Below, piece after piece: positions 11,056 to 30,353 of a stretch of DNA of 32,166 nt (positions within the stretch are counted from its first letter, which is position 1; the number at the start of each line of letters is the position of its first letter). Source of the stretch: a virus. The stretch lies in IMG/VR virus record IMGVR_UViG_3300038425_000175, positions 1 through 32,166 of that record, one strand, 5' to 3'. The position numbers and the translations under genes were made by a program. Below the pieces are notes generated by a model. The model ran no database searches and was not told where the DNA came from. It saw nothing but the letters and a program-made list of their open reading frames with translations.

Positions 11056-13821
11056 CTATTTTACTACCATGACTTGCTTCGCTCGCACAAGTTTCATTTG
11101 CTTGTCCACCAGGTCGTTGAGCCACCTGTTTTTCGGTTCGTCGTCGTCATCCTCGGGGCCGAGCGATGCGATCACAAAGCCACGCTGCCGGGCACCCTCC
11201 AGAATGAACGTCGCCCAGTCGAACTTGTCAGGGCTGCGTCCCAGCCTCTCTTTCAAGTCCTCCTTGGGCTCAACCTCGATCTTGTTTCCGGCAACGGTCT
11301 TGTATTCTCGGATGCAGCCTTCATCCACCACGTCCTCCCCCAGTTCCCGGACCTGCTCGGCCTCAATCGCGTAGCGCAGCGAGAACCAAATCTCAGTGAT
11401 CTTCTTGCTGTAATGCTCATCGCACCGTTTGAGCCGCAACTGCCGGGTGCGCTCGTCGAAAATCCTCAAGTCCTGGCGCACAGGACGCTTGGTGGGATTG
11501 CCGCCTTCCTCAATCGGCAGCGGCGGGTTATGGCCAAATACCCGCGCGAAAGCGTAACCCACTGTGCCCTTGCCGAAGGCCCCGTAGAAAGCGTTCTCAT
11601 AAGGGATGTCGTATTGATCCAAGTCAATCTTCACCGTCTCGGCGATCTGGTCTTCGGGTGATGCCTTGAGCCGCAGGTTGATCTGAATGGGTGTCGGCTG
11701 CGTAAACCGGATGATCTGTCCGCCTTCAAGGGACTCGCCGAATTCGGCCCAGCCGCGCATGCAACGGTCCCCGCCGCCATAGGCCGGGTCCACCGCGTAA
11801 ATCTTCGTCCGCTTCTCATTGGCCCACGTGGCCTTTTCAAACACGCGATGGTCCCGGCAAAGCTGCTTCGTGATGACGCGATCATGGGCGAGGCTGAATT
11901 TCATCACGCCCTTGACCCGGCGGTAGAAGTCCGGCGAGTCGGGTCCGGAATCGTGAATCACCCGCCGCATGAACTTGTAGCCGATCAGGCCGGGATACGG
12001 TTCAATGGCTTCCGGCCCCACGTCGAAGTTCGGCGAATCGGTCCCTACTAGATTGATGCACCGGCCATTCAAGAACTTCGTGTCCCAGCAGGTTGTCTTT
12101 TCGGGTTCGGGGAGCGAGTTCCAGCCGTCTTTGGGTTCCGCTGACACGCCGAGCGGATCATCCGGGTTATGATTTGGGTTGCCTGAGCCAACGATCTTTA
12201 CGTCGGGATTGGCGAACAGGGAATTCCACGAATGAAGAAAGGTGCCAGCCATGTACTGCAACTCATCCCCGATAAACCGCACCCGTTGCTGCTTGATACC
12301 CACGAACAGCGAATCTCCCACCCATTGCTTGTTTTCGTAGCAAGCCTTGCCCATGATGCCAAGCCGCCGATCCCGCATCTTGGTGTCTTCGAGCTTGTGC
12401 GTGTAGATCGCATGGTGATGATCCACGATGTTACCCGCCAGCCACGGCCAGCGCGCCTGTCCTGCTGCCCAGAGCGACTTGATCTCACCGAAAATATTGC
12501 TTTCGAGCTTGTCCACCTTCGTCGTCGTCACCAAGGCGAGCGTGTTTTCCGGGTGGCACCAGTAGTCAATCAGCAACCATTCCGCAGCGTGCGCAGTTTT
12601 CTGACTGCTGTTATGGTGAATAGTTCCCTCAGCAAAATAGTGATGAGCCTTCGGAACCTCAATATCATAAAAATAATCCGTGCCTACGGAAATAATGCTT
12701 TTTATTCTTGTTGCGTTTCTATGATGATGTACATTTTCTGAATGGCAAGACCCAGAATCAGTCCTAAAAACCGCATCTGTATTTACTGCAAGGCTGTTTT
12801 CCCTAGTCCGAATCCCAAAAAGATCAGAAACACATGCTCTAACAAATGTCTTAGTAAATTCCTGAGCAACTTTCAACGCACCGTAAAACGCAGAAAAAGG
12901 GCCAGCGGAAAAGTTGTCAACATTTCTTGTGAGCGATGCAAAAAAAGTTTCTTCACATGGCCGTGTTTTAAAAACACCAGGAGGTTTTGTTCCAACACTT
13001 GCCGCAACGCTTGGTTTTCCCACTCCCAACCCACTGGTAAAAATCATCCCTATTGGAAAGGTGGACTCAGAAGAAACTGGCGAGGAACGTCTTGGAAGGC
13101 TGCCCAAAAATCCGCTAGGATCAGAGACGGTTGGAAATGCAGCGTGTGCAAAATAACTCCAGTTGGGGAATTGGTGCATGTTCACCACATCGAGCCGTTC
13201 AGTGTATTCGGAAGAGAGCGGCATGTCGAAGCAAACAGGCTCGGCAATCTTATTTGCCTCTGCCGGTCCTGTCACATGAAAGTTGAAAGAGGAAGCATTC
13301 GTATCGTATCCAGAGACAACATCTCCTGCTGATAAATCGGAAACGTGAACAAACCCACCTGGAGTCAAAACCCGGTGCGTGGCAGTAGCGGTGAATCGGT
13401 TTCCGTTTTCAAGCACGACTTCAAATAATTCAGCTATGCCCTTGATGAACGGCACATGAGCCAATCGTGGGCCTTCCAGCGTCATAACGACCGGGGAAAT
13501 CCGGTTTCGGTGCAGCCATTCAATCGTAGGTTGCTCCCCGGTGATGGGATTCAAAATGCGCGTCTTTCCCGCCACGCAAGCCGATCCCATCAGGATCGTG
13601 ATTTCGTGCTCGATGATCTCCTTGTAGATAAGCCGGGTCCAGCGATGCTCGTAGCGATTTATCCAGATCAATTTTCGAGCGGCAAGAAAGTGTTCCAACA
13701 ATCCCAGTCCAAATTGACGGCCTTGAACCTTGATGAAGCCGCCTGCCTTGATGAACTCGAACTCGATGGCCAGAGAATCCATCTGCGAGTCCCAGGTTAG
13801 GCCGTATTTTTCGGTGAGCAT
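11056..13821 (-). CDS. terL: Terminase large subunit, interrupted by an intein
   Basis: TerL is the packaging motor ATPase and nuclease. The precursor has 921 residues from ATG 13821; the frame is open to a TTG at 13836, but MLTEKYGLTWDSQMD is the more natural start. The N-extein is residues 1-81 and the C-extein starts at Ser405, so the mature protein would be 598 residues, a normal TerL length. Splicing joins GSA to SSQKT to make Walker A, GSASSQKT, with Gln where Gly is usual. Walker B is VRFIGDELQYM near 514-524. The RNase H-like nuclease has AVDPAYGGGDR near 676-686 and GRSPDKFDW at 861-869, the usual Asp sites. It is the first gene of the minus packaging operon, with the divergent palindromic region upstream. 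The intein is described separately. Confidence 0.88.
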   Translation of the reverse strand: MLTEKYGLTWDSQMDSLAIEFEFIKAGGFIKVQGRQFGLGLLEHFLAARKLIWINRYEHRWTRLIYKEIIEHEITILMGSACVAGKTRILNPITGEQPTIEWLHRNRISPVVMTLEGPRLAHVPFIKGIAELFEVVLENGNRFTATATHRVLTPGGFVHVSDLSAGDVVSGYDTNASSFNFHVTGPAEANKIAEPVCFDMPLSSEYTERLDVVNMHQFPNWSYFAHAAFPTVSDPSGFLGSLPRRSSPVSSESTFPIGMIFTSGLGVGKPSVAASVGTKPPGVFKTRPCEETFFASLTRNVDNFSAGPFSAFYGALKVAQEFTKTFVRACVSDLFGIRTRENSLAVNTDAVFRTDSGSCHSENVHHHRNATRIKSIISVGTDYFYDIEVPKAHHYFAEGTIHHNSSQKTAHAAEWLLIDYWCHPENTLALVTTTKVDKLESNIFGEIKSLWAAGQARWPWLAGNIVDHHHAIYTHKLEDTKMRDRRLGIMGKACYENKQWVGDSLFVGIKQQRVRFIGDELQYMAGTFLHSWNSLFANPDVKIVGSGNPNHNPDDPLGVSAEPKDGWNSLPEPEKTTCWDTKFLNGRCINLVGTDSPNFDVGPEAIEPYPGLIGYKFMRRVIHDSGPDSPDFYRRVKGVMKFSLAHDRVITKQLCRDHRVFEKATWANEKRTKIYAVDPAYGGGDRCMRGWAEFGESLEGGQIIRFTQPTPIQINLRLKASPEDQIAETVKIDLDQYDIPYENAFYGAFGKGTVGYAFARVFGHNPPLPIEEGGNPTKRPVRQDLRIFDERTRQLRLKRCDEHYSKKITEIWFSLRYAIEAEQVRELGEDVVDEGCIREYKTVAGNKIEVEPKEDLKERLGRSPDKFDWATFILEGARQRGFVIASLGPEDDDDEPKNRWLNDLVDKQMKLVRAKQVMVVK
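12610..13578 (-). mobile_element. TerL intein (323 residues) inserted in Walker A
   Basis: Inteins are self-splicing protein elements. The N-terminal splice block is CVAGKTRIL (Cys1, block A), TATHRVLTPGG near residues 65-75 is block B with its T-x-x-H, and the C-terminal blocks are YFYDIEVPKAHHYFAEG (F) and TIHHN followed by extein Ser (G), with the expected His-Asn at the junction. Insertion at the P-loop is a typical intein site in terminases. Only about 82 N-terminal and 44 C-terminal residues form the splicing domain, the size of a mini-intein. Residues about 83-279 between them are not an in-frame endonuclease: they are the antisense of an HNH gene on the plus strand. The linker keeps an open frame and would be translated as an odd Ser/Thr/Phe-rich insert. 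Confidence 0.88.
12742..13332 (+). CDS. HNH homing endonuclease encoded antisense inside the terL intein
   Basis: A 196-residue protein on the strand opposite terL. Zinc-ribbon pairs are C13-I-Y-C16 with C32-x3-C36, C63-E-R-C66 with C83-x3-C87, and C133-S-V-C136 with C174/C177. The HNH core is VHVHHIEPF (His148-His149), then NRLGNLICLCRSCH with Asn169 and His178. WKAAQKSARIRDGWKCSVC before it is the usual helix leading into HNH. HNH homing enzymes cut intein- or intron-less alleles so the element copies itself. The gene lies wholly within the intein, between splicing blocks B and F. There is no Shine-Dalgarno before the ATG, and a stop lies directly upstream. It contains 7 Leu and 19 Ser codons but no TTA, CTA or TCA, the three codons that would put stops in the intein frame. 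It looks more A/T-rich than its surroundings. Expression needs its own promoter, which I cannot identify. Confidence 0.85.
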   Translation: MARPRISPKNRICIYCKAVFPSPNPKKIRNTCSNKCLSKFLSNFQRTVKRRKRASGKVVNISCERCKKSFFTWPCFKNTRRFCSNTCRNAWFSHSQPTGKNHPYWKGGLRRNWRGTSWKAAQKSARIRDGWKCSVCKITPVGELVHVHHIEPFSVFGRERHVEANRLGNLICLCRSCHMKVERGSIRIVSRDNISC

Positions 13822-13957
13822 GATGGCTGTTGACAACCGTATCAGTTTCAGTGAACACTTGCAATGTGGTCCAGATAATCGAGTTTTGTCCCGCCGCGTG
13901 CCTTTTGGGAATCATTCCCGTCTGGATCACCGCGCGAGCGGGACTTGATTTCAAACC
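13822..13957. promoter_or_regulatory. Divergent promoter region with nested palindromes
   Basis: This 136-bp gap separates the start of the minus late operon (terL) from the plus methyltransferase gene, so it must drive or link transcription in both directions. It has a palindrome GGGAATCATTCCC at 13907-13919 nested within outer arms GTCCCGC (13888-13894) and GCGGGAC (13938-13944), an arrangement that could be an operator or fold as a cruciform or hairpin. A TTGACA at 13828-13833 could be a -35 box but has no convincing -10; GATAAT at 13874-13879 could be a -10 for the plus strand with a poor -35. No exact promoter can be assigned. Confidence 0.4.
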
Positions 13958-20010: not shown

Positions 20011-21066
20011 ATGAACACACTCGCCAACTGCAAAGCCTCATCCCGCATCCGCCGAGTCGCGGGAAGCTGCAACGGCAGCCAGGACTTCCTGGACCTGCTC
20101 AACGACGGGGTGAGGATGCTGATGACGCGCGGGAATTTTTTTGGCACCGTGAAAAAGTGCTGCGCCTGCATCCGCTGCAATGAAATCGTCTGGCCTCGAC
20201 AAGTGGCTACTCCACTCGCCATAAATCGCTGCAATCGCACAGTTCCACTCCAGAACCACTGGGCCGAATTCGACGCGCTCACTCGCAACGACCTGCTTGG
20301 TTATTGGGGCGGAGGCTGGGAATGGAATTTTGGCATGGGCGGTTGCGGTCAGCATCCCGGGCTGCAAGGAAACACGGTCCCCGTGTTCAACCCGATCTCG
20401 GGTGCGGATGGTATGGCGGGCGTTTACATCCGCTTCTATCCAACTCAGCAAGCCGACATCGGCAAGACGATCACCGTCTTCGGAATCGACAGCAACGGCG
20501 AGGAACTGCGTTCGGTCCGCTCTGACGGCACGGTTCAGGACGGCATCGTCACCACTCTCACACTGCCCTTTGCGACCATGCCCGCCAGCGATAGGAACGT
20601 CAACACCATGCGACACATTACCCGCATCGTGAAGGACGTGACGGACGGGCCGGTGTACTGTTTTCAATACCGCGCTTCCGATAACGTAATGCTCGATCTG
20701 GCGCGTTACGAGTCCGGCGAAGTTTTGCCAGACTATCAAACGACCCAGCTTCCGGGACACCACTTCGAGGCTGCTGCCGGATGCACGCCGATGATCACCG
20801 CCCTCGTCAAGCTCCAGCACATCCCAGCGGTCAATGACGATGACCTCGTTGCCATTGAAAACGTTGATGCCATCGCCCTTGCCATGCAATCAATTAAGTT
20901 GGCGGATAGTTTTGACTTCCAGCAAAAGTCGGCGATGGAGATTGCCGCCGTAAAAGAACTGAATGCTGAGTTACGCACTCGATTCCCGATCGATCAAACT
21001 CCCCAAACATTCAGCGCCTTTGGCACCGCTTTGCCGAGTAGGGCTGGTATTGGTCGCTGGACTTAA
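20011..21066 (+). CDS. Adaptor/neck-like structural protein
   Basis: 351 residues. QDFLDLLNDGVRMLMTRGNF near 24-43 and EIVWPRQVATPLAINRC near 58-74 fit the pattern LLNDA.R.L..RG.W.GT ... WPR.V...LAVN, which I associate with head-tail adaptor or neck proteins of podovirus-like phages, though I cannot check it. Later parts (TVFGIDSNGEELRSVRSDGT, MRHITRIVKDVTDGPVYCFQ, ALVKLQHIPAVNDDDLVAIE) look like a beta-rich body followed by a helical end. The C-terminal 32 codons overlap, antisense, the 3' end of the HNH gene. The stop (21064-21066) coincides with the place where HNH homology ends, so the protein itself is probably intact. Confidence 0.52.
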   Translation: MNTLANCKASSRIRRVAGSCNGSQDFLDLLNDGVRMLMTRGNFFGTVKKCCACIRCNEIVWPRQVATPLAINRCNRTVPLQNHWAEFDALTRNDLLGYWGGGWEWNFGMGGCGQHPGLQGNTVPVFNPISGADGMAGVYIRFYPTQQADIGKTITVFGIDSNGEELRSVRSDGTVQDGIVTTLTLPFATMPASDRNVNTMRHITRIVKDVTDGPVYCFQYRASDNVMLDLARYESGEVLPDYQTTQLPGHHFEAAAGCTPMITALVKLQHIPAVNDDDLVAIENVDAIALAMQSIKLADSFDFQQKSAMEIAAVKELNAELRTRFPIDQTPQTFSAFGTALPSRAGIGRWT

Positions 21067-21528
21067 CCGCCATGTATGATTTAAAAGAATTTGAGAAATG
21101 GTGGGTTGCGCCACGTGGTATTTTTTTGCCATTCGGGTTTGTTCCCCGCAAGCCACGGTGGAATCTCTGCGAATTTCTTCGACTTGCTTCCAAGTCAATT
21201 TTGCAAGGTAGCATTTGTCGCCCGCGCACCCCCTCCCGCGGTCCATCATATCTTTCATGTTTTGAGTATTGTTCCCAAGATACAAATGGTCTGGATTCGT
21301 ACATTCTGGATTGTCACAAGTGTGTAGTACCATCAACCCCATCGGAATCTCGCCCCTGTGTATTTGCCAAGACACCCTCGGTCCCCTCAGGGTGTATGGG
21401 GGCTTTTTGGATGTTAGTATTCCGTATCCGTCTTTATCTTTTCGTCCTGTCCACACCCAGCATCCGGGTTGTTTCACGACTCGCGCCCAGAACCGAATCG
21501 GAATTGGAATTGCAACGAAGGCAGCCAT
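20971..21528 (-). CDS. HNH homing-type endonuclease inserted between structural genes
   Basis: 185 residues from ATG 21528, selected by the AAGGAGG eight bases upstream and TAATG coupling to the zinc-ribbon gene; the frame is open to 21660 but that part is out-of-frame zinc-ribbon sequence. PGCWVWTGRKDKDGYG at 21-36, RGPRVSWQIHRGEIPMG at 48-64, VLHTCDNPECTNPDHLYLGN at 67-86 and TQNMKDMMDRGRG are the HNH_3-type motifs of I-HmuI-like enzymes. A C-terminal helix-turn-helix is at 110-150 (AKLTWKQVEEIRRDSTVACG and TRMAKKYHVAQPTISQILLN) for target recognition. Homology appears to end at HTWRL (151-155); the last 31 residues are the antisense of the neighbouring structural gene. Being antisense to a plus late operon suggests insertion as a mobile cassette. 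Expected role is homing, cutting a related phage that lacks it. Confidence 0.8.
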   Translation of the reverse strand: MAAFVAIPIPIRFWARVVKQPGCWVWTGRKDKDGYGILTSKKPPYTLRGPRVSWQIHRGEIPMGLMVLHTCDNPECTNPDHLYLGNNTQNMKDMMDRGRGCAGDKCYLAKLTWKQVEEIRRDSTVACGEQTRMAKKYHVAQPTISQILLNHTWRLSPATNTSPTRQSGAKGAECLGSLIDRESSA

Positions 21529-21656
21529 TACTTCACCCTCCTTTGCTGCCAGTACGGCGAGTGGCAGTGAGCGCACACGGGCGGGAGTTTGGGTTTGCGC
21601 GGATACCACTGGTAGCCGCAGCGTTTGCACTTGAGCAGCTTGAGTATTGGTTTCAT
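21528..21656 (-). CDS. 42-residue zinc-ribbon protein coupled to HNH gene
   Basis: A 42-residue frame starting MKPILKLLKCKRCGYQWYPR and ending with PVCAHCHSPYWQQRRVK. C10-K-R-C13-G with W17-Y-P-R and C28-A-H-C31-x-SPYW is a compact zinc-ribbon pattern I associate with many short phage and bacterial proteins (C..CG..W.PR....P..C..C.SP.W). It ends with TAATG overlapping the start of the HNH endonuclease at 21528, whose Shine-Dalgarno lies within its last codons. Pairing with a mobile HNH gene suggests that the two moved together as a cassette. Function unknown; nucleic-acid contact is likely. Confidence 0.75.
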   Translation of the reverse strand: MKPILKLLKCKRCGYQWYPRKPKLPPVCAHCHSPYWQQRRVK

Positions 21657-21704
21657 TCATTTATTTCTACATGAACATAGTAACGCGGTCAACAAAATAA
21701 TAAC

Positions 21705-29382: not shown

Positions 29383-29712
29383 GACAAGACACCAAAACCC
29401 ATCATCGAAGAAATCTACGATCGCCACACAGACAAAAAACCACAACCCCTAATCGTAACGACCGCGCATCGTGGTGTTTTCTTTGGCTACGGAACGCCAA
29501 CGGATGCAGCCACCATCACCCTGACTAACGCTCGCATGTGCGTTTACTGGACCTGCGATTTGCATGGAGTCTTTGGACTTGCCAGCCGCGGGCCTGGCGC
29601 TGGTTGCAGGATCGGACCATCCGTCGAGCGGATCACCTTGCGCGACGTAACCGCCGTTATTGAGTGTTCCGAATCCGCCGCCACCGAATGGGGGAAAGAG
29701 ATATGGTCCTAG
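29377..29712 (+). CDS. DUF6948-like small protein
   Basis: 111 residues from ATG 29377 (AAAGGA ribosome-binding site, ATGA overlap on the upstream stop). PLIVTTAHRGVFFGYGTPTD, ITLTNARMCVYWTCDLHGVF and GLASRGPGAGCRIGPSVERI match my memory of the DUF6948 family, short phage and bacterial proteins of unknown function with the pattern V.VTT.HRGVFFGY...D...I.L.NAR.C.YW..D..G..GLA..GP..GC.IGP. The end overlaps the Gly-repeat protein by ten bases. The strong beta pattern suggests a compact domain. The family name is moderately sure; no function is known to me. Confidence 0.62.
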   Translation: MKDKTPKPIIEEIYDRHTDKKPQPLIVTTAHRGVFFGYGTPTDAATITLTNARMCVYWTCDLHGVFGLASRGPGAGCRIGPSVERITLRDVTAVIECSESAATEWGKEIWS

Positions 29713-30353
29713 TGCAGTATAGATTCGGCTCCGGCTACGGCGACGGCTACGGCGACGGCTACGGCGACGGCGACGGCGACGGCGACGGCTCCGGCTACGG
29801 CTACGGCGACGGCTACGGCTACGGCTACGGCGACGGCTCCAGCTCCGGCTACGGCTCCGGCTACGGCTCCGGCTACGGCGACGGCTCCGGCTCCGGCTAC
29901 GGCGACGGCGACGGCGACGGCGACGGCTACGGCTACGGCTCCGGCTCCGGCTCCAGCTCCGGCTCCAGCTCCGGCGACGGCGCCGGCTCCGGCTCCGGCT
30001 ACGGCTCCGGCTCCGGCTACGGCGACGGCCAAGATACCAAAGAATACTTTTCGGCTCTGATTACGCCACACACCGCAGACTTCGGCATGGTCGCGTTCTG
30101 GCGTTCCTCTCTAGACGGAAAACCGGCTAACGGAGGCAGTGGGCCACCTCGAAAAGTCGGCGCAATTGAAACTACCAGCGGCAGGCTAAACTTGTGCGGC
30201 GCTACAGCACTTCACGCCACGCTCAAGCCGTCGGAATGGAAAGGCGAACGCTGGTGGATTGTGCGCCTCTCCTATCCCATAATTGGAGACGATGTCAAGC
30301 TCGGCTCGCAGAGACGCGAGATTCTTAGAGACCTTGGGCGTTGCCCGTTTTAG
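29703..30353 (+). CDS. G-[S/Y/D] dipeptide-repeat protein
   Basis: 216 residues from ATG 29703, ten bases inside the previous gene. After MVLVQYRF come 50 dipeptides, nearly all GS, GY or GD (with three SS and one GA), residues 9-108, encoded by hexamers GGCTCC, GGCTAC and GGCGAC. The C-terminal half is ordinary: LITPHTADFGMVAFWRSSLD, LNLCGATALHATLKPSEWKG, ERWWIVRLSYPIIGDD, LGSQRREILRDLG. That domain pattern (C..ALHATL.P..WKGERWW.V) occurs in proteins that also carry pentapeptide- or Gly-rich parts, by my memory. The repeat is likely flexible and hydrophilic, with Tyr and Asp as possible metal or partner contacts. Function unknown. The hexamers probably expand and contract between strains. 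Confidence 0.65.
   Translation: MVLVQYRFGSGYGDGYGDGYGDGDGDGDGSGYGYGDGYGYGYGDGSSSGYGSGYGSGYGDGSGSGYGDGDGDGDGYGYGSGSGSSSGSSSGDGAGSGSGYGSGSGYGDGQDTKEYFSALITPHTADFGMVAFWRSSLDGKPANGGSGPPRKVGAIETTSGRLNLCGATALHATLKPSEWKGERWWIVRLSYPIIGDDVKLGSQRREILRDLGRCPF
29727..30026 (+). repeat. 300-bp hexanucleotide array (50 units of GGC-NNC)
   Basis: Fifty in-frame 6-bp units, each GGC followed by TCC, TAC or GAC (one GCC), with AGC replacing GGC at three Ser-Ser positions. Gly is always GGC, Tyr always TAC and Asp always GAC, so units differ by single bases only. This uniformity points to growth by slippage or unequal recombination rather than by point substitution. No unit was found elsewhere in the window. 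Confidence 0.9.

Follow-up and report, generated by a model that had tools for sequence, protein, structure and literature searches.

The large terminase subunit (terL) gene of the analyzed viral DNA is interrupted in its P-loop by an intein, and the part of this intein between the splicing blocks B and F carries, on the opposite strand, a complete HNH endonuclease gene (Table 1). The analyzed stretch, hereinafter the window, is a 32,166-base IMG/VR virus record, in which end repeats are absent. Both frames are open, the codons of the HNH gene are exact reverse complements of the intein codons, the two products fall into recognizable protein families and retain their motifs, and a second antisense case has been found in another viral contig. 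We consider it probable, though not certain, that this is a splicing-competent terL intein with a homing endonuclease encoded antisense to it, that is, a mobile element made of two parts. The layout, the coordinates (intein 13578-12610, HNH gene 12742-13332), the splicing blocks (Cys1, TATH, F/G, HHN before Ser) and the exact codon register agree with those given in a preliminary description of this DNA.

Table 1. Features of the terL locus (positions in the window), of the second antisense case (positions in contig L146), and loci with same-strand HNH genes.
Feature	Coordinates or loci	Strand	Remarks
terL (terminase large subunit) gene with intein	11056..13836	-	926 codons, single open frame; hhalign and weak tblastn matches to terminases
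N-extein, 86 aa	13579..13836	-	ends ...ILMGSA, first part of Walker A loop
Intein, 323 aa, Cys1 to Asn	12610..13578	-	in P-loop, GSA^SSQKT
N-terminal splicing region, blocks A and B (Cys1, TATH)	13333..13578	-	weak match to Mtu RecA mini-inteins
HNH endonuclease gene, 196 aa	12742..13332	+	antisense, exact codon register with intein frame
Region upstream of HNH start	12701..12741	+	TGA directly before ATG; weak TACATT -10-like box
C-terminal splicing region, blocks F and G, ends HHN before Ser	12610..12741	-	TIGR01443 above cut-off
C-extein, 517 aa	11056..12609	-	Walker B-like RFIGDE, RNase H-like VDPAYGGGD; hhalign
L146 intein, 282 residues, primase-helicase P-loop	L146:1675-2520	+	ends HHN before Ser
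L146 HNH_3 gene, 186 residues	L146:1844-2404	-	antisense inside intein, HNH_3 E=5e-10
Same-strand out-of-frame HNH between blocks B and F	L173, L177, L185, L187, L195, L200, L204 and 34 loci within L206-L325	same strand	mostly TerL

The host frame may start from TTG or from an ATG further inside. Its assignment to TerL is supported by profile comparison and by motifs read by eye. In particular, hhalign aligned the host protein with an alignment of four annotated large terminases (96.6%, E=6e-10, the C-terminal 71 residues being collinear), the matching part being the C-terminal nuclease region of TerL, and Walker B-like and RNase H-like motifs are seen in the same protein; Pfam terminase models gave zero matches to it. 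With the intein removed, the protein reads ILMGSA^SSQKTAHAAEW, which places the insertion at the Walker A loop position. Two other regions of the window were noted in passing. A second homing endonuclease gene, of the HNH_3 type (20971-21660, minus strand; PHROG E=1.6e-27), is free-standing and lies on the strand opposite to that of its neighbours, and a long frame of Gly/Tyr/Asp/Ser repeats (GYGDGDGDG...) at 29664-30353 of the plus strand faces an antisense frame that is likewise open, as an Ala/Val/Gly repeat.

The intein sequence (CVAGKTRILN...TATHRVL...YFYDIEVPKAHHYFAEGTIHHN, continued by SSQKT) contains recognizable splicing blocks at both ends. Block A begins with Cys1 at 13578-13576 (CVAGKTRIL), the TxxH motif of block B is TATH within ...RFTATATHRVL, an AGDVV stretch follows block B, block F is YFYDIEV, and block G (YFYDIEVPKAHHYFAEGTIHHN) ends with HHN, followed by Ser. 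The intein C-terminal profile TIGR01443 scores above the cut-off (24.3 bits, cut-off 15.6), the Pfam Intein_splicing profile (PF14890) just below it (E=5e-8, 33.2 bits, cut-off 35.8), and the N-terminal profile TIGR01445 below it (E=0.003, 18.3 bits, cut-off 24.5). The slight deficit of PF14890 might be expected, since a long foreign insert parts the halves of the profile. Profile matching of the terL frame recovered no endonuclease family, and thus the usual in-frame endonuclease between blocks B and F is absent, as had been claimed. The AlphaFold model of the intein alone (pLDDT 31.5) was not used.

The protein encoded on the plus strand contains two zinc-finger modules of the CxxC-CxxxC type (C13/C16/C32/C36 and C63/C66/C83/C87) and a complete HNH core (C133, C136, H148, H149, N169, C174, C177, H178) that is invariant among eight relatives; all 22 of the 22 invariant columns in the alignment of eight HNH proteins are retained by the window protein. 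The Pfam HNH profile (PF01844) scores above its cut-off (28.8 bits, cut-off 21.4), PHROG HNH families match at E of about 1e-20, and related HNH endonucleases are found in phages and haloviruses with E down to 1e-20. Among these relatives, the one in Enterococcus phage Sw5 is located between two ribonucleotide reductase genes, and the one in HVTV-1 directly follows terL.

The start of the HNH gene adjoins block F, and its end reaches slightly into the AGDVV stretch, which is antisense to the final HNH codons. As a result of this placement, the conserved HNH core is opposite to the intein linker, and only the variable tail of the HNH protein faces conserved residues of the splicing domain. The HNH gene begins with an ATG of its own and is closed by tandem stops (TGA TAA). 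An origin by inversion of an ancestral in-frame endonuclease was considered and rejected: the inverted repeats near the ends are short and imperfect, which, together with the gene's own start and stops, makes a free-standing gene the likelier source. No Shine-Dalgarno sequence is present upstream of the HNH gene, as is the case for most genes of this phage, and no convincing plus-strand promoter for it was found in the window. One may speculate that the TACATT box, six bases 5' of the ATG, directs a near-leaderless transcript.

Searches of viral contigs, genome contigs and phages yielded no close relative of the window TerL or its intein, none with the same layout, and no intein-less allele of this TerL; L008 and L009 were rejected as chance matches. 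The antisense layout was found elsewhere, in the primase-helicase gene of the viral contig IMGVR_UViG_3300035698_020555 (L146), from the set of contigs fetched by an HNH motif pattern. The host frame of L146 comprises a CHC2 zinc finger, Toprim and an MCM-like P-loop; excision of its intein gives GDTR^SGKT, the counterpart in the intein-less Bacillus phage BSTP12 being GDTRTGKT. It shares with the window intein the P-loop site, the HHN end before Ser and an opposite-strand HNH gene whose start adjoins block F; an alignment of the two splicing domains gives E=3e-6 and 2e-5. The two cases differ in the host (primase-helicase in L146), in the endonuclease subtype (HNH_3 rather than zinc-finger HNH), in the antisense frame used, and in the presence in L146 of a Shine-Dalgarno sequence (GGAG, seven bases 5' of the GTG start). 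When synonymous codons of the L146 HNH gene are permuted, the intein frame stays open in 5e-5 of the trials (P=5e-5). The layout thus recurs, and the window is not unique. The two inteins perhaps belong to one lineage of P-loop inteins ending with HHN before Ser. We tentatively propose, as a generalization that may prove right or wrong with nearly equal chances, that in one lineage of phage P-loop inteins the homing endonuclease is regularly encoded antisense, so that intein and mobility enzyme would come from opposite strands, their expression would be separable, and different HNH subtypes would have been swapped into the antisense slot more than once (TerL of the window, primase-helicase of L146).

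HNH genes hidden in viral inteins on the same strand, in a shifted frame, are common. Such a gene, in the +1 frame, is present in the TerL inteins of Gordonia phage Clown (L005) and Synechococcus phage S-EIVl (L052), where the genes are annotated only as terminase and the HNH remains unannotated. Among viral loci with the HNCxIDDP signature at one TerL site, 7 of 33 contain same-strand out-of-frame HNH, all in +1, and among matches to a generic intein C-terminus pattern these are 34 of 122 (12 in +1 and 22 in +2; 29 of the 34 at E of 1e-5 or better), both counts being of loci rather than of independent events. The other generic-pattern matches have HNH in frame (5/122) or none detected (83/122), and antisense HNH was found in 0 of the 122. 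This pattern favours inteins of the FxANG...HNC type and matches neither the window intein nor that of L146, so the frequency of antisense cases is not derivable from this survey. Frames differ by site: inteins at the TerL Walker B site have HNH in +1, other sites mostly in +2. Pfam confirmed HNH in 10 of 10 same-strand cases tested (one just under the cut-off), and intein blocks were found in 9 of 9 host proteins tested (some below the cut-off). Comparison of six related sense-nested TerL inteins, in pairs from different groups, gives 60-71% identity in the HNH frame and 34-49% in the intein frame; the stronger conservation of the former points to selection on the hidden HNH, the intein frame needing only to stay open. 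No antisense LAGLIDADG or GIY-YIG genes were detected by motif in the sampled inteins. A 2025 preprint by Gosselin et al. ('Non-Canonical Architecture', doi 10.1101/2025.01.02.630785) may have reported intein endonucleases lying out of frame before.

From the sequence, we infer splicing, cleavage of terL by the HNH enzyme, homing and plus-strand expression. The minus-strand terL mRNA would be translated into a precursor from which the intein would excise itself, rejoining the P-loop of TerL. The slot that normally holds an in-frame endonuclease is taken by the complete zinc-finger HNH gene on the plus strand, and the enzyme would have to be produced from a separate plus-strand transcript, since the terL mRNA carries only the complement of its gene. 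The enzyme probably cuts intein-less terL, and the repair would copy the intein and the HNH gene together. Where it faces the HNH core, the intein frame would act as a linker whose main duty is to stay stop-free.

A free-standing homing gene could instead have used a mini-intein as a safe landing site; its product may cut elsewhere, and the intein would not be mobilized. The own ATG and tandem stops of the HNH gene fit this, as do the mostly free-standing relatives of the HNH protein and the occurrence of nested HNH genes in non-intein genes as well, e.g., methylases. We nevertheless regard it as unlikely, because the HNH gene fills precisely the slot that an endonuclease takes between blocks B and F, as in the examined sense-nested inteins and in L146. 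Slightly more doubtful still is a passenger HNH gene that is unexpressed or in decay, with activity confined to the intein and a frame intact owing to recent arrival. The GC content and codon usage of the HNH gene, which differ from those of the rest of the phage, do suggest a recent arrival, and the lack of a detected promoter or Shine-Dalgarno sequence would also fit a passenger. However, the gene is full-length and stop-free with every invariant residue kept, the L146 HNH gene has a ribosome-binding site, and the HNH frame is conserved in the related sense-nested cases. A two-part element with an antisense homing endonuclease is preferred.

The open antisense frame by itself is moderate evidence. 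Among the five alternative frames across the HNH gene, only that of terL is free of stops; the remaining four have 4, 10, 6 and 14. The HNH gene contains 7 Leu and 19 Ser codons, with zero TTA, CTA or TCA, as had been counted previously; the codon choice shuns stops in the intein frame. The probability of such avoidance, given the HNH protein, is 0.068 with the codon usage of this phage and falls to 0.002 when the usage of HNH relatives at similar GC3 is taken. The earlier estimates (about 0.06 for Leu and 0.03 for Ser) were of roughly the right order of magnitude. The same count in homologous genes gave a stop-free antisense frame in 0 of 43 HNH relatives (a few duplicates being among the 43) and in 3 of 73 further HNH genes. 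The weight of the case lies with the recognizable proteins that both strands encode. Antisense frames opposite HNH genes in L064, L090, L098, L129, L153, L173 and L250 were judged to be chance openings; where read (in some loci partly), they showed no intein blocks and no recognizable host protein over the overlap. For the window, a chance open frame with accidental HNH resemblance has a negligible probability: a scarcity of TTA, CTA and TCA often leaves codon-register antisense frames open, as the three stop-free genes of the 73 illustrate, but profile matches at 1e-20, the complete zinc and HNH residues and the intein blocks precisely flanking the HNH gene refute it.

Inteins are commonly presented as single polypeptides joining splicing and homing. 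In the window, splicing and homing would share DNA, but neither strand nor reading frame, so that two full proteins may be encoded by the two strands of a single phage DNA segment. Antisense coding would uncouple the dosage of the homing enzyme from TerL synthesis, and each messenger could interfere with the other. Moreover, the surveyed loci suggest that hidden endonuclease genes are present in a considerable share of the viral inteins that look like mini-inteins when annotated in frame; this is relevant to the persistence of mini-inteins and to the annotation of overlapping genes.

The preliminary description knew of no intein with an antisense-encoded endonuclease. In an open-access library none was found either; the case itself is not isolated, given L146 and the common same-strand hidden HNH genes. 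The closest described system is the ShiLan domain, a hidden HNH gene in the sense strand of phage DNA methylases, out of frame with the host gene (PMC11855218); a preprint dealing with 'non-canonical architecture' in the inteins of actinobacteriophages is cited in the same paper (PMC11855218). As in the window, an HNH homing-type gene is nested there in a phage gene, and the frame of this host gene remains open across it. Unlike the window, where the HNH gene is antisense and inside an intein, the ShiLan HNH shares the strand of its host gene, which encodes a methylase, and the insertion lacks a splicing domain; the window has neither a same-strand HNH nor an insertion free of splicing domains. 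Same-strand out-of-frame HNH genes similar to the ShiLan domain were also observed in DNA methyltransferase genes of the IMG/VR contigs L037, L038, L044, L046, L051 and L101.

The viral TerL inteins with same-strand HNH (Clown, S-EIVl and about 40 IMG/VR loci) share with the window intact intein blocks, the lack of an in-frame endonuclease and HNH overprinted between blocks B and F, but their HNH is in +1 or +2 and could be read from the terL mRNA, whereas the window HNH needs antisense transcription. Canonical inteins, with an in-frame LAGLIDADG or HNH domain, have the same splicing blocks and endonuclease slot, but in them splicing and endonuclease domains normally belong to one polypeptide, and in the window the endonuclease is a distinct protein encoded by the opposite strand. 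In split inteins, a separate endonuclease gene lies between the intein halves. The intein-associated endonuclease is thus a separate gene there, as in the window, but the intein itself is divided between two genes, while the window intein is continuous. A layout resembling that of split inteins was seen in Pectobacterium phage Abuela (L351, 1828-4174), where an overlapping LAGLIDADG homing endonuclease gene precedes the helicase gene; this helicase was rejected as an antisense case, the LAGLIDADG gene being on the same strand. Compared with these systems, we rate the hidden out-of-frame HNH gene as already known, and its antisense orientation inside an intein as the new feature of the window.
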